A DNA stretch of 40,480 nucleotides, taken from Gammaproteobacteria bacterium. Its GTDB lineage: Bacteria > Pseudomonadota > Gammaproteobacteria > SURF-13. The stretch spans positions 1 through 40,480 of the forward strand of contig QZKM01000026.1 in the NCBI GenBank assembly GCA_003599485.1, written 5' to 3'. The number at the start of each line of letters is the position of its first letter. Position 1 is the stretch's first letter. A program made the position numbers and the translations under genes. Below are positions 23,097 through 29,983 of this stretch, in pieces. The notes under the pieces were generated by a model. That model saw nothing but the letters and a program-made list of their open reading frames with translations. It was not told where the DNA came from and searched no databases.

Positions 23097-23339
23097 CTAT
23101 TCATCAGAATCCTTCCTCGGCCGTCCACGTGGACGGTACTGCAATGCTCTTCCCGTCATCCTCTCAAGCTTGTGGATGAACTTGCCTGAACCACAGGGCA
23201 GACCTTTTTCTATGTTGCGCCGCAGTACTCCAAGCTTCTCCGCCTCATTGCCCTCGGCCAGCCAGGCCGACCAGTCGCCGATGCCTTCAAACTGCCTGCA
23301 CCAATACGGCTTTTTCGTCAGTAATGCGTCTTGTCTCAA
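23097..23339 (-). pseudogene. C-terminal fragment of a REP-associated transposase (RAYT, Y1 family)
   Basis: About 80 residues including IGDWSAWLAEGNEAEKLGVL, RRNIEKGLPCGSGKFIHKLE and RALQYRPRGRPRKDSDE. These match the C-terminal tail I associate with REP-associated Y1 transposases, which mobilise or spread REP hairpins. The catalytic HUH and tyrosine region, normally upstream, is missing because the stretch opens directly after the membrane-protein gene. It is therefore a non-functional remnant. It starts with TTG if translated at all, and overlaps the end of the preceding gene by 4 bases. Confidence 0.75.
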
Positions 23340-23755
23340 TCCGCAGTGTCCGCCCGCGCTTGTTTATGTTCTTTAGCTTTGAGCAGCTTTCCGACTGCCA
23401 GATACCCAACGACGGCTGCTGCCACCGGCGAGAGGATCATCAACCAACCTAAGATGCCGGATTCCACTGCAATGATTGACAGCGTTTGAGCCGTCGTGAG
23501 GTTACCAGCGGACCCGATGAGGTACAGAACGCCGATCGGGAATATCAGAATCACGACTACGAACGTCACGACGACATCCAGCAATCGGACCCTACCAGCA
23601 AGCACACCTCCCAGTACCGCAAGAACGGCGAAGATCGGAAGCGACCAAGCCGGAATCTCTGGAATAAGATCGGCTGCTACCAACGCAGCGGTTGCGATGA
23701 TAAACCCGAAGTAGATAGCGGGCATGACAACGATGCCGAGCGATCGCTTGTTCAT
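23336..23755 (-). CDS. Four-helix membrane protein, candidate immunity protein
   Basis: 139 residues with four predicted membrane segments: about 7-31 (PAIYFGFIIATAALVAADLI), 38-55, 59-82 (LLDVVVTFVVVILIFPIGVL) and 91-121. It ends in a short basic cytoplasmic-type tail. I do not recognise the family. Its ATG is 2 bases past the stop of the orphan RHS C-terminal module, the position an immunity gene normally occupies. A membrane-embedded immunity protein would fit a toxin acting at the inner membrane; this is inference from position only. Its own ribosome-binding site is weak (GGGGAC about 10 bases upstream), suggesting translational coupling to the RHS tip. Confidence 0.6.
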   Translation of the reverse strand: MNKRSLGIVVMPAIYFGFIIATAALVAADLIPEIPAWSLPIFAVLAVLGGVLAGRVRLLDVVVTFVVVILIFPIGVLYLIGSAGNLTTAQTLSIIAVESGILGWLMILSPVAAAVVGYLAVGKLLKAKEHKQARADTAD

Positions 23756-23757
23756 GG

Positions 23758-24748
23758 TCAGATGTCCCCGTCACCAGGCCCTTTCGGAAGCTTCGGCTTT
23801 CGGACCTTCCCGAGGCATTCGATGAACTTGTTACGGCATTCATTCTGTTTCTGTTCATCGGTACCTGCTGCTCCATAGCAAGCCTGTTGTTCGAACGTGC
23901 AGCACACCGTCATGGATACCTTGCACGCAAGGTCAATGCAGACCTCGCAGATCTTTCCGCCGATCGGGTTCTCAGGGCATATCCGGTATCGGTTGTAATC
24001 GCCAGAGCTGTCAGTACCGTCCCCGGCTTGCAATCCAAACGGATCGATGAAACGCAAAGGATTATTGTTGGCGTAGACAGACGTAGGTATTGAGTCCTCC
24101 ATCCAACCCAATCGGATCCCTGGAAAGATACCGCTCCGACTGCGGATCATAATACCGATTCCAGTTGTAGTGTAGTCCGGTCTCCTGGTCATAGTACTGG
24201 CCGGGGTATCTCAGGTTGTTGGTGAGGGTGGCTGCATCCAGGGTGGCTTCGCCGTAGGCGTCATAGGAGGCCGACCAGACCTGGGCGCCGCTCATGGTGG
24301 TGAGTTTCTGCGGGGCGCCGAGGCGGTCGTTCTGATAGAAGTAGTAGCTGTGGTTGGCCTGGAGGTAGAGATATAAGGGGTCGGTGCCCCACACGCTGTC
24401 GGGGGCGTAGCCGTAGGTCTGGATGAGGGCGCCGCTTTCATTGTATTCGGCAATCAGGCCTTCGTCGCTGTAGTGGTACCAGGTTTTGGTTCCGCCGGTG
24501 TCTTTCCACAGGCGCCGGTTGAAGGGGTCGTAGCCGTAGGCGGCGATCGGGGTGTTGCCTTGCTCGACTTTGCTCAGGCGGTTTTGGGGGTCCCAGGTGT
24601 AGTGGACGCCACTGGGGTCGGTGAGGCTCTTTTTGCGGCCGCGGGCAAAGTGGCTAGGGCGCGTGGCAGAGTGTAAAGGCCACGCAGCACGGACAGCGCC
24701 CTTCGCACCGCGCAGCGTCGTTCCTGTCTTTATTTGACTCATGCTCAT
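23758..24748 (-). pseudogene. Orphan RHS tip with cysteine-rich C-terminal domain, frameshifted
   Basis: From about 24631 the minus strand encodes RHS repeats (SGVHYTWDPQNRLSKVEQGN, then the hallmark RYLSRDPIGLDGGLNTYV). The reading frame then breaks at a 4-base tandem duplication (agacagac, 24075-24082). With one copy removed it reads GLNTYVYANNNPLRF then DPFGL, the standard end of an RHS core. After DPFGL about 85 residues follow with nine cysteines (such as CEVCIDLACKV and VCCTFEQQAC), with no family I recognise. There is no N-terminal shell and no plausible start, so it resembles the displaced tip left by RHS C-terminal exchange. The first about 40 codons upstream are not RHS-like. A four-helix membrane protein follows 2 bases later. 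Confidence 0.75.
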
Positions 24749-25228: not shown

Positions 25229-28200
25229 CTATTTGTTTTGGCACTCGCATGCGCCTTGTTTTCCTAAGCCACGCGACTTTATAAGATTCTCAAAGTCGGA
25301 TGTGTTTTGCGAATTCCTGATCAACGCACGGTAATAATCTGCAAGTATCTCAGCCTGTTGCTCATAACGATAGTCACCAAAATCCTTGCTGGGGTCCAAA
25401 TCATATTGGTAAGTGTCACTCCTTGTCCCTTCAGCAGCAGCCTTTACCCAGCTATAGCTTGGATCATTTTGACCCTGATAGACATGTCCCACTTCATGAA
25501 CTAGCCACGATTGCTCTGCCAGATTTCCCGTCGAGAAATCTGATTTATAACCAGAAGATGGAAAATAAATGTTGTTGCCTAATGTGACCGCATTGTTTGT
25601 TGCAAGCGGTGGCCAAGTGCGAGGATCAAAACCTGGCCCGTCATGAATATCGATTTTCGGGTAATCAACATTGCAGTTGAAAATCTGACGAAGCATGTCA
25701 ATTTCGCCAGCTGTTAATGGACGAAGTCCGAAAGGATCGTAGTATCGAAGCGGATTTGCAAGAGCATAGATATAGGTATTCAGTCCCCCCTCCAACCCAA
25801 TCGGATCCCTAGAAAGATACCGCCCCGTCCCCGGATCATAATACCGATTCCAGTTGTAATGCAGTCCTGTCTCGCTGTCGAAGTATTGGCCGGGATACCG
25901 CAGATTCACGGTTGTAAGCCGCCCGTCTTGATCGGGATCCTCGTTGGGCACGGTATACCCGAAGGCCTCCCCTTCCCAGGACCACACTTTGTGGCCGGCG
26001 GCGTCGGTGGCAAGCCGCGGGGCGCCGAGATGATCGGTGTGGAGATAAACGAATACTTCTTCGCCCGTACCGGCACCCGGGCGTTTGGTCTGCGCTGGCA
26101 TCGGGGGGCGCTTGTCAAGAACGGTGCTGCGACCGGTGGCACAGGCTTGGTTTCCGGGGTTGCCGTGGTCACAGGGCAAGGGACGGGGGTCGCGGGTTGT
26201 GGTCCACTGCCCGAGCACTTTGTCCTCAGCCCAGAGGTATGTGCGATGGGTCGCGCCGCTCGCGTCGGTTTCCCGCAGCAGGTGGCCTTCGATGTCGTAG
26301 TGAGATAGCGTGATGCCCTGCGCCGTTTGTTTGCGGGTGCGCTGGCCAAGATGGTTGTAGGTGTAGGTGGCCACCCTGGAGCCGTTGTGGTAGATCTCCT
26401 TGAGCCGTCCGGCCTGGTTGTAGCGGTATTCCCGACCCGTCGCATCAGTCAGGGTGTTGCCGGCGGCATCGAGGGTGATGGCGCCCTCAGGGGAGGTGCT
26501 GAGGCGGTTGGTGGCGCTTAGGTAGCTGTAGCTGCCGCGGGCGTCGCTTAGGCGGTTGCCGTTGGCGTCGTAGCCGTAGGTGTCTATGGCGGTCTCTCGG
26601 TTCATTTGAGTCAGCCGGTCAAGCCGATCATAGCGGTAGTTTGCGCCCTCCGCCAGGCTTTGTTTTTGGGTGAAGTTGCCGTTGGGGTCATACGTATAGA
26701 GCCGGGTGTCGGCCGTGCCGAGGGACTGGTAGGTGAGGCGCCCTTGTAGATCGTATTGGCGCGCTTCGGCCAGACCGTTGCCATAGCCCTGCGCAATCAG
26801 AAGTCCATCAGCACGGTAGCTACGGTTGGCGGCGATGATGGTCGAAACGCCGTTCACCGTCGCTGTGACGGCGCCGATGCGTCCGAGGGCATCACGGGTG
26901 TATTGTACAAGGCGGCCGTCGGGATAGGTAATCCCGATGAGCCGATCGGCGGCGTCGTAGCCATAGCGTGTCACGTAGGTCACGCTGAGCTCAGCCTTCT
27001 GGTGGGTTAATACGTTGCCGAAGGCATCAAAGGCATAAGCGCTGATACCGCTTTCGTCCTGGACCTGGCACAGGTGGCCGATCCCAAAGGTACAGGCGGT
27101 CGTACTGTCCACAGGCGCCGCGTCGTAGGTAAACAGGACATCCTCCGCGGTGCCGGGGTAATCGAGCATGGTGGGACGGTTCAGAGGGTCGTAGATATAA
27201 GTGACGGTGATGCCTCGGGCGTCGGTCATGGTCTTGACATTACCGGCCGCATCGTGGCTATAAGCCGTCGTACCCCGATCGGGCGAGTGTTCTTGCAACA
27301 GGTTGCCGAGGTCGTCGTAGATATACTCGGTCGTCGCGTTGTTGGGGGCTTGCATCTGTTTCAGCCGATCGGCCACGTCGTAGTGATAGCGAGTGCGACC
27401 GCTTAGATTGTCGAGGGTCTCGATCAGGCGGTTTAAGGGGTCATAAGTGTGGGTGGTCGAGATACCGCTCGCGGCCGCCACTTGATTCGGGTCAGTCGTT
27501 TTGAGGAGGTTGCCGACGGCGTCCCACACTTGCCGGGTGAGGGAACCGCCGCTGTTGATCTCGTTCACACGGTTGCGGGCATCATAGGTGAACTCAATAG
27601 AGCGCGCCAGAGCGCCTTGGGGGTCGTAGGTCTTTTCACCGACGCGGTTGCCTTTGAGATCGTAGGTATAGGTGATCTTGTTGCCCAGACTGTCTGTGAT
27701 AGTCCTGAGGTAATGGGCAGCGTCGTAGGTGTAGGTAAGCGCAAAGCCATCGGGCATGGTGACCGAGGTTACTTGGCCTGCGGCGTCGTAAGTATATTGG
27801 GTGAGACGGGGCGTCCCGCCCGGCGGGGTGACGGTGACCGTGAGCATGCGCCCGCGTGCATCATATGTGTAGCTGGTCTTGATGCCATTGGGGTCGGTCA
27901 TCTGCAGCAATCGGCCGGCGGCATCGTAGGCATCATAGGTGGTGGTGTGGCCCAAAGCGTTGGTCACATTCTTTAATTGGCCGCAGGCACCGCCGGTGGT
28001 GCAGCCGTAGTAGGTCAGGGTGGTGAGGTCGTTTACGTCGGTGCGCGGTCCGTCGAGTTTGGTCACCTGGCCGGATACGTTGTAGCCGAGTTTGACCGTG
28101 CGCGAGACCGGTGTGCCGGAGGGCATGTAGCCCGATTGGGTGATTTCGATCGGGTTGCGTTGGGCATCGTAGGTAATATGCGTTTGCTTCGTGCCCGCTG

Positions 28201-29983
28201 CCCACACGCTGGGGGTTTCAATGAGCGTGGGGAGGTCCAGCTCGGCGCTGAGATATTGGTAGGCGGTAATGCGTGCGGCCGCGCCGGACACCGGGCTGCT
28301 ACAAGCGCCGGTCAGTCCCTCGGTCATTGAAACGCGCTGGTTGGCGGTGTTGTAGGCGTACTTCGTCACCCTGCTCTCATCGTCTTGTTTACAGGTGAGG
28401 TTATTGTTGGCGTCGAAGGTTTGAGTATGGGTTCTGCCGTCACTCAGGTTTTTCCTGGCTGTGAGGTTCTTCATCCCCAAGGTCACGGCAAAGGTCATGA
28501 CCTCTTTGTTGCCAATCGCATCGGTGATAGTGGTTTGCGTATCCGTGTCATACTGCAGGGTATATTTCTCCTGCGGGCCGCCGTTGTCAGTGACGGCGTG
28601 CTGGCTGGTGACCGCCCGGCCTTGGCTGTCGTAGCTCCAGGTGGCCAAACGCGCACCGTTTTCATCTGTGATCCCGGTCAGGTGACGCGGGTAAGCCGTA
28701 TTTTCGTAGTGATAGGTTCTGAACTTACCGTCCGGATAGGTCACGCGGATGAGGTTGTTGCTGGCATCATACGCGTAGCTGTAAATCTTCCCTGCGGGAT
28801 CTGTGAAGGTGCTTAAATGGCCACTCGCATCGTAGCCAAAGACCAGGGCATGACCAAAGGGACCAGTGAGGGTGGCGAGCTTGCCTTGGGTGTTGTAACC
28901 ATAGACGTAAGTCAATCCAGCACGATTCGTGCTCGATAGGAGTTTACCCATACTGTCGTAACGCTCAGTAGCACCATCCTGGTGAGTAAGGGTGTACCCA
29001 GTGGCGCCTTGGGCAAGAATCAATTCCGAATCAGCCTCGCCTTGCCAGGCTCCTGAGGCATTTTTAGTAAAGTGCTCGCCACGCCCGTCGCCACGCCACA
29101 CGGTGAGGATGGTGCTGTTGATCTCCAAATAGGGGGTGGCATTCGCGCTCCAGCCATAGCCGAGACCCAGGTCTTTGTTTGCGCCGCTGTTGTAAGAGCG
29201 GGTGAAGCTTATTGTGCCATCGGGACTGCGGTAATCTATTTCAGATTGATACTTGTTGCCGGTGGCGGGGTTGCAGGGGTTGCCGATGCATTGATCGGGC
29301 TCGCCGAGGTTTTTAGGCGGGGTTTCGCACAAACCTGGCAGGGCGTTGCGTGTCTGGCCAACGGGACAGGGATCGAGTGTAACGGTGATGGTCGCGGTTA
29401 TGGGGTTGGTGCAGATGGTATTTGGACCTACTGCTTCATGTACTAAAGGGTCGCCTAGGGATATGCTCTTGGGAAAATTAGCTATGGCATAATTGGCTGG
29501 AGTGTAGCCAGTCGGACAAGATAGCCAATGAAACGGATAGCCATGAGGCCCACGATGATCTGGGTTTGTCGTAATTAAATCAAAACATCCCCCCTCTTCC
29601 CCATATCCACGGTCTGCATTCTGGATATAAGTGAGAGGGTTATGCCAGCCGATAAAATCCCTACGGGCGTCACATACTTCGTGGCCAGAACCATAATCAC
29701 CTGGAACATTAGCCCAATCAGACCATGTGGAGGGATTAGGTGGTATGGGTGGTACAGTATAGCTTCTTATAATGATTGTGGCGGTTTGGCTGATGATCTT
29801 ATCGAATTGTAAAAGAGCAGTACCAGCACTCACTGCCCTCATGGCGGCTTCGGCCTCTGCCAAGGTGGGATAAATCTGGCCGCCGGTATTGCTAGGCTGA
29901 AAGGTGTCCGAGTATGCAGCATTGCCTATGGCAGTCAGGCACAGCACGCACAATAACCACGCCCCGTTCGTGATGCGCTTCAA
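25229..29983 (-). CDS. RHS-repeat polymorphic toxin with signal peptide and HExxH C-terminal domain
   Basis: 1584 residues. The start is TTG, supported by GGGAGG 4 bases upstream. A signal peptide (NGAWLLCVLCLTAIGNAAYS) is followed by about 200 residues of cysteine-containing N-terminal region. A DUF6531-like segment follows (GNPCNPATGNKYQSEIDY, about 230), then more than 20 YD/RHS repeats such as TYDAAGQVTSVTMPDG and YRYDRLDRLTQM. The core ends RYLSRDPIGLEGGLNTYIYA and DPFGL (1416-1420). The last 164 residues are the variable tip. They contain H1496-E-V-G-H1500 and later YEQQAEILADYY, where a glutamate could be the third zinc ligand, so a zinc metallopeptidase toxin is likely. There is no PAAR, VgrG or Eag partner nearby, so the export signal points to Sec rather than a type VI route. 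A lipoprotein gene follows. Confidence 0.88.
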   Translation of the reverse strand: MKRITNGAWLLCVLCLTAIGNAAYSDTFQPSNTGGQIYPTLAEAEAAMRAVSAGTALLQFDKIISQTATIIIRSYTVPPIPPNPSTWSDWANVPGDYGSGHEVCDARRDFIGWHNPLTYIQNADRGYGEEGGCFDLITTNPDHRGPHGYPFHWLSCPTGYTPANYAIANFPKSISLGDPLVHEAVGPNTICTNPITATITVTLDPCPVGQTRNALPGLCETPPKNLGEPDQCIGNPCNPATGNKYQSEIDYRSPDGTISFTRSYNSGANKDLGLGYGWSANATPYLEINSTILTVWRGDGRGEHFTKNASGAWQGEADSELILAQGATGYTLTHQDGATERYDSMGKLLSSTNRAGLTYVYGYNTQGKLATLTGPFGHALVFGYDASGHLSTFTDPAGKIYSYAYDASNNLIRVTYPDGKFRTYHYENTAYPRHLTGITDENGARLATWSYDSQGRAVTSQHAVTDNGGPQEKYTLQYDTDTQTTITDAIGNKEVMTFAVTLGMKNLTARKNLSDGRTHTQTFDANNNLTCKQDDESRVTKYAYNTANQRVSMTEGLTGACSSPVSGAAARITAYQYLSAELDLPTLIETPSVWAAGTKQTHITYDAQRNPIEITQSGYMPSGTPVSRTVKLGYNVSGQVTKLDGPRTDVNDLTTLTYYGCTTGGACGQLKNVTNALGHTTTYDAYDAAGRLLQMTDPNGIKTSYTYDARGRMLTVTVTPPGGTPRLTQYTYDAAGQVTSVTMPDGFALTYTYDAAHYLRTITDSLGNKITYTYDLKGNRVGEKTYDPQGALARSIEFTYDARNRVNEINSGGSLTRQVWDAVGNLLKTTDPNQVAAASGISTTHTYDPLNRLIETLDNLSGRTRYHYDVADRLKQMQAPNNATTEYIYDDLGNLLQEHSPDRGTTAYSHDAAGNVKTMTDARGITVTYIYDPLNRPTMLDYPGTAEDVLFTYDAAPVDSTTACTFGIGHLCQVQDESGISAYAFDAFGNVLTHQKAELSVTYVTRYGYDAADRLIGITYPDGRLVQYTRDALGRIGAVTATVNGVSTIIAANRSYRADGLLIAQGYGNGLAEARQYDLQGRLTYQSLGTADTRLYTYDPNGNFTQKQSLAEGANYRYDRLDRLTQMNRETAIDTYGYDANGNRLSDARGSYSYLSATNRLSTSPEGAITLDAAGNTLTDATGREYRYNQAGRLKEIYHNGSRVATYTYNHLGQRTRKQTAQGITLSHYDIEGHLLRETDASGATHRTYLWAEDKVLGQWTTTRDPRPLPCDHGNPGNQACATGRSTVLDKRPPMPAQTKRPGAGTGEEVFVYLHTDHLGAPRLATDAAGHKVWSWEGEAFGYTVPNEDPDQDGRLTTVNLRYPGQYFDSETGLHYNWNRYYDPGTGRYLSRDPIGLEGGLNTYIYALANPLRYYDPFGLRPLTAGEIDMLRQIFNCNVDYPKIDIHDGPGFDPRTWPPLATNNAVTLGNNIYFPSSGYKSDFSTGNLAEQSWLVHEVGHVYQGQNDPSYSWVKAAAEGTRSDTYQYDLDPSKDFGDYRYEQQAEILADYYRALIRNSQNTSDFENLIKSRGLGKQGACECQNK

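Follow-up and report, generated by a model that had tools for sequence, protein, structure and literature searches.

The C-terminal domain of VgrG2b from Pseudomonas aeruginosa (PDB entry 6h56) is a metallopeptidase that is toxic in the periplasm, with its HExxH motif being required and with blebbing at midcell as the visible effect; E983 was named as an additional zinc ligand, PA0261 neutralises the toxin through binding, and the substrate was not found (PMC6899460). In Salmonella arizonae, SARI_02727 and the DUF7480 lipoprotein SARI_02726 have been demonstrated to be an effector-immunity pair in which a periplasmic toxin is neutralised (PMC12992299). Proteases of the VgrG2b type have so far been studied as weapons of the type VI secretion system (T6SS). 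In 2012, Zhang et al. reported RHS tips from the wider metallopeptidase class, and they also list a Sec/type II secretion (T2SS) route for RHS toxins (PMC3482391).

We report a locus in a draft gammaproteobacterial genome, situated in a stretch of 40,480 nucleotides (the window, i.e. the whole stretch of DNA that was analysed), which likely encodes a Sec-exported polymorphic RHS toxin having a periplasm-acting gluzincin tip from the VgrG2b/Tpe1 family and, immediately downstream, a lipoprotein-like immunity protein (Table 1). Toxicity, delivery and immunity are what we infer for the RHS protein and the lipoprotein, and the data are presented below together with the alternatives that have to be weighed.

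Table 1. Features of the RHS locus, in window coordinates
Feature	Position	Strand	Basis
RHS protein gene, 1,584 aa, uninterrupted; TTG start at 29983, last base of the stop codon at 25229	29983-25229	minus	Open frame; RHS domains
Putative Sec signal peptide, approximately residues 1-23	29915..29983	minus	By-eye reading of the sequence
DUF6531, residues 234-305	29069..29284	minus	Pfam PF20148, E 5.6e-14
RHS-associated core, residues 1340-1420	25724..25966	minus	TIGR03696 (NCBIfam), E 7e-23
Metallopeptidase tip, residues 1421-1584 (164 residues)	25232..25723	minus	6h56 by sequence and predicted fold; GC 44.5%
HEVGH, residues 1496-1500: predicted zinc ligands H1496 and H1500, predicted catalytic E1497	25484..25498	minus	Invariant; aligns with HExxH of 6h56
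E1541, predicted third zinc ligand	25361..25363	minus	Invariant in 50 relatives; aligns with EQQ of 6h56
Candidate immunity lipoprotein, 138 aa, 3 bases past the RHS stop codon	24809..25225	minus	Immunity-protein HMM; hhalign; Asticcacaulis relative
Orphan RHS core fragment, frameshift near 24075-24082 by tandem GTCT	24062..24748	minus	RHS models; sequence
Displaced cysteine-rich tip of the orphan fragment	23758..24030	minus	Follows DPFGL in shifted frame
Small hydrophobic membrane protein behind the orphan tip, 139 aa	23336..23755	minus	Sequence

The RHS gene was found where the original prediction had placed it, on the minus strand, and GGGAGGA upstream of its TTG constitutes a good ribosome site. 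Its proposed nature as a polymorphic-toxin carrier was borne out, since Pfam identifies 20 RHS_repeat stretches, DUF6531 and the RHS domain, and since the core is present; the defining features of RHS polymorphic toxins (repeats, a DPxG core end, a variable tip, a candidate immunity gene and a displaced orphan tip) were all found at the locus. As judged by eye, the N-terminus, MKRITNGAWLLCVLCLTAIGNA-A, resembles a Sec signal peptide, in keeping with the suggested Sec-type start; nothing was seen that indicates wall anchoring, and the proposed routing to the wall is not supported. RHS proteins generally have a shell that encloses the tip, and they cut themselves, the spacing of the two DPxG sequences in the self-cleavage motif being 18 residues. 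In the present core, DPIGL is at residue 1393 and DPFGL, which occurs once, at 1416-1420, with a spacing of 19 residues between the two DPxG sequences.

Relatives of the N-terminal region of the carrier were identified in 15 other genomes (369 searched). Four of these (L158, L159, L161 and L172) could be read to their ends and have tips that differ from that of the window; three of the genes behind these tips encode small membrane proteins with 3, 3 and 4 hydrophobic segments and the product of the remaining one is lipoprotein-like. The four RHS proteins have a similar, Sec-type N-terminus, and two of the tips are cysteine-rich with a CxxHDxCY pattern like that of phospholipase A2. A second intact RHS carrier was found neither among the best 80 relatives listed from genome contigs nor among those frames longer than 600 aa that were examined, which is no proof of rarity, and a search for the RHS-tip junction in 48 genomes of another class recovered none. 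A 1,305-aa frame (G367), considered as a possible RHS carrier, reads as an eCIS_core-type protein instead. Other carriers of the tip family were seen: at L136 (3775-7860) the domain is N-terminal in a 1,361-aa protein whose repeats are glycine-rich and of the RTX type, an architecture that suggests a type I secretion carrier, and at L138 (1151-3994) it is at the end of a 947-aa protein that consists mostly of long helical repeats, which is an unfamiliar carrier.

The 164-residue tip after DPFGL contains HEVGH exactly where it had been reported, and its assignment as a metallopeptidase is supported by sequence and by predicted fold. Specifically, a phmmer search of the PDB matched tip residues 1-135 to the VgrG2b effector domain (6h56, E 9.9e-12). 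In a 50-member alignment of the tip, R1, E7, H76, E77, H80, Q83, Y105, E121 and Q123 (tip numbering) are invariant, and H1496, E1497, H1500 and E1541 of the full-length protein are thus conserved across the 50 relatives. The YEQQAE sequence begins at residue 1540, and the idea that it supplies the third zinc ligand agrees with the invariance and alignment of its first glutamate, E1541 (Table 1). An HExxH motif arises in 0.13% of shuffled versions of the tip sequence, which makes a chance origin unlikely, and the family evidence decides that the HExxH of the tip is not due to chance.

In an AlphaFold2 model of the tip, built on the 50-member alignment (pLDDT 88.9, pTM 0.86), residues 68-86 form the helix that bears HExxH and residues 120-135 the one that bears E121. 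The model matches 6h56 both by Foldseek (E 1.9e-6) and by VIA-align (Z 17.8, 1.9 Å over 142 residues; the next chain has Z 6.7), and the HExxH residues, as the original prediction implied, are not set apart: the model superposes on this zinc enzyme with the predicted ligands in register. By sequence and predicted fold, the tip belongs to the VgrG2b C-terminal/Tpe1 periplasmic metallopeptidase family. Matches of the tip to Cake proteins in the PDB were low-scoring and repeat-driven and were rejected as homologues, and fold matches to lethal factor, PPEP and aminopeptidase (Z ~6) reflect the common gluzincin core only. Neither a relative of the tip in viral contigs nor a DNA match in E. coli genomes was obtained.

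The Pfam model eCIS_core (DUF4157) also matched the tip alone, just over its cut-off (22.6 bits vs 22), and such matches have been published for VgrG2b relatives too (PMC6899460). This match favours a role in processing, with the enzyme serving to free the tip or the RHS shell; the like has been proposed for PVC-type metallopeptidases, for which Zhang et al. give autoprocessing as the main role (PMC3482391). We find it very improbable that the tip has this function, because the domain is at the extreme C-terminus, a position that the same paper treats as that of the toxin, because no toxin domain is present behind it, and because its predicted fold is closest to that of a proven toxin (6h56).

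The partner of the RHS protein had been described as a lipoprotein, and a lipoprotein-like gene is indeed present behind the tip; by eye, its product has a hydrophobic start and a lipobox-like LLWGC, in which W at -2 is unusual. Genes behind T6SS-type tips in other genomes encode secreted proteins or lipoproteins, some of which match DUF7480 (PF24295) and NF045617, the latter bearing the name 'putative T6SS immunity periplasmic lipoprotein'. An immunity HMM was built from 31 genes neighbouring tips in other genomes and used to search 404 six-frame ORFs of the window together with 2,000 shuffles. The window lipoprotein ranked first (E 8e-5; the next had 0.083), also after removal of the Elusimicrobia members from the HMM (E 0.0016), and hhalign gave 79%. 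The curated DUF7480 (PF24295) and NF045617 models did not match it, and the usual immunity-protein cysteines are absent, as they are from the Elusimicrobia members. Moreover, a PDB sequence search identified no relative, and a class-wide search with the lipoprotein alone yielded chance-level matches only. A single-sequence AF2 model was poor (pLDDT 48.5) and was set aside. On the basis of the profile comparisons, the window lipoprotein is a distant relative of the PA0261/DUF7480 immunity proteins and a probable immunity protein.

Independent support came from a tblastn search of plasmids with the window lipoprotein alone. The best match, an unannotated ORF (E 4e-3; 26% identity over 119 columns), is on a plasmid of Asticcacaulis sp. 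DW145 (NZ_AP029026.1). Directly upstream of it, the decayed remains of an RHS end (...DPTGL) run into a tip of the same family (HMM E 4e-11), in which HExxH is lost and the frame is shifted; tip and lipoprotein together span L197 5372-6390. The RHS-tip junction search recovers the same place (E 2e-7). Consequently, the order RHS end, tip and lipoprotein is present in two distant hosts.

The RHS locus is inserted between glmM and tpiA, two genes separated by ~80 bp in two family members and by ~7.2 kb here. This junction is occupied in another family member by a 631-aa sensor-like gene with an apparent GGDEF domain (L183, 1696-3591), and it may thus be a hotspot of insertion. The GC content is 57.8% for the RHS body, 44.5% for the tip and 43.9% for the lipoprotein gene compared to 60.1% for the window; with ~44% GC in a 60% GC region, the tip and the lipoprotein gene look like one transferred cassette. 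Further downstream, a stretch of 134 bp in the orphan RHS core is 84% identical to the main core's end. The cysteine-rich tip of the orphan fragment belongs to no Pfam family and the 139-aa membrane protein has no Pfam match over cut-off; with the orphan fragment they make up 23336-24748, and the two probably represent a second toxin-immunity cassette. PADLOC returned no match. The anatomy is as expected of a polymorphic RHS locus. The frameshift in the orphan fragment, together with the decay of the Asticcacaulis copy, raises the question of whether the main gene is a relic, intact yet silent in a decaying insertion. With 1,584 codons open, all active-site residues kept and an intact lipoprotein gene directly behind, we attach next to no weight to this explanation.

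In a maximum-likelihood tree the window tip groups (100/97) with stand-alone relatives at L004, L007 and Chlorobi loci. A hydrophobic anchor is present at the N-termini of L004 and L007, and the stand-alone relatives have no visible immunity-like gene behind them. The end branch of the window tip is long and its placement is thus unsure. The highest identity of the window tip is to an Elusimicrobia tip (42%, L021), and the Elusimicrobia tip loci have an immunity-like gene behind the tip. Membrane-anchored stand-alone tip domains with no visible immunity gene behind were observed at L004, L005, L006 and L007, and this form may be a housekeeping envelope protease, i.e. a non-toxic cousin of the toxin family. 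Because the window tip groups with such immunity-less and partly membrane-anchored relatives, the main rival to a toxin is a non-toxic envelope or surface protease derived from stand-alone membrane-anchored metallopeptidases, with the RHS part only showing the tip on the cell surface or retaining it in the periplasm and with the lipoprotein being a regulator or bystander. We regard this as unlikely, since the lipoprotein is immunity-like and has an Asticcacaulis relative linked to the same tip, since the tip occupies the variable end of the RHS protein and has the GC content of a recent cassette, and since the tip closest in identity is followed by an immunity-like gene. The original prediction had left open the choice between a contact-dependent toxin and a surface protease; with a tip of the VgrG2b/Tpe1 family and a probable immunity protein, an antibacterial toxin is more probable than a free surface protease.

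With respect to delivery, the surroundings of the RHS gene show no VgrG, PAAR or Eag gene, as was originally observed, and the whole draft genome (96% completeness) has no match to TssC or VgrG, these being the two marker families on which the absence of a T6SS rests. Those relatives of the tip that have been characterised are mostly T6SS effectors, and a T6SS may have been missed in a draft of 96% completeness or may act from outside. The probability that the RHS protein is a T6SS effector is nevertheless judged to be minimal, given the lack of TssC and VgrG matches and an N-terminus that is Sec-type and not PAAR or adaptor-dependent as in T6SS RHS effectors. The genome encodes the type II secretin GspD (622 bits).

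For the preferred explanation, a Sec-exported toxin, the following sequence of events is the most likely. The RHS protein would cross the inner membrane by Sec, its shell would enclose the tip and cut itself near DPIGL...DPFGL, and passage of the outer membrane would be via T2SS or another route. In the periplasm of a related cell the tip, with zinc held by H1496, H1500 and E1541 and with E1497 as the catalytic base, would cut an envelope protein and disturb cell division, while the lipoprotein, through binding to the tip in the periplasm, would shield the producer and its siblings. Immunity located in the envelope is in keeping with a producer that sends its toxin through its own periplasm. 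Counting against this explanation are the tree grouping with immunity-less stand-alone relatives (although the branch is long), the misses by the curated models, the missing cysteines and the W at -2 in the lipobox of the lipoprotein, an outer-membrane route that is a candidate only, and the use of a 96%-complete draft genome, which can miss genes.

Each of the components was already known separately, i.e. the tip family, immunity of the DUF7480 type, Sec-routed RHS toxins, and PVC-type metallopeptidase tips after RHS repeats (Pedosphaera). Their exact combination, without T6SS markers and with a recognisable relative of the immunity proteins, is not described in PMC6899460 or PMC12992299, nor in the part of PMC3482391 considered here. 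A module of this kind on a Sec-type RHS carrier, in a genome that lacks T6SS markers, suggests carrier independence of the toxin-immunity module, with one toxin-antidote cassette being common to quite different delivery machines. Tentatively, and as something we hold to be possible but doubtful, we propose a T6SS-independent class of Sec-exported RHS toxins with envelope-acting tips, including those of the VgrG2b type, which trade cassettes with T6SS and which are regularly paired with immunity proteins of the membrane or lipoprotein kind, since each toxin crosses the periplasm of its own producer. The four carrier relatives and the two window cases are too few for a rule of envelope immunity, yet hint at one, and a testable rule is thereby offered: toxins transiting the periplasm of the producer need envelope immunity. 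Moreover, the locus lends itself, as a natural system, to the question of how large RHS proteins exit Gram-negative cells without a T6SS.

Compared with VgrG2b/PA0261 of P. aeruginosa (6h56; PMC6899460), the window tip agrees in sequence, predicted fold and HExxH...E zinc site, and in both cases a small protein, putatively envelope-directed in the window, is encoded directly behind. The two differ in that the VgrG2b domain is carried by a T6SS VgrG spike, whereas the carrier of the window tip is an RHS protein of Sec type and its genome has no TssC or VgrG match, and in that the window immunity candidate, unlike PA0261, lacks the usual cysteines. With SARI_02727/SARI_02726 of S. arizonae (PMC12992299) the locus has in common a VgrG2b-type metallopeptidase and a lipoprotein that, putatively in the case of the window, faces the periplasm; SARI_02727 is, however, a stand-alone T6SS cargo while the window tip is on an RHS protein, and the window lipoprotein has diverged beyond the reach of the DUF7480 model. 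In Pedosphaera parvula, among others, RHS proteins end in a PVC-metallopeptidase; by their description in PMC3482391 they resemble the window protein in having RHS repeats followed by an HExxH metallopeptidase of the PVC/DUF4157 class as the predicted toxin, and that description mentions no immunity gene for them. Finally, the Asticcacaulis sp. DW145 plasmid shares the RHS core end, the tip family at the same junction and a homologous lipoprotein behind it, but its locus is a fragment with HExxH lost and the frame broken, whereas the gene in the window is intact.
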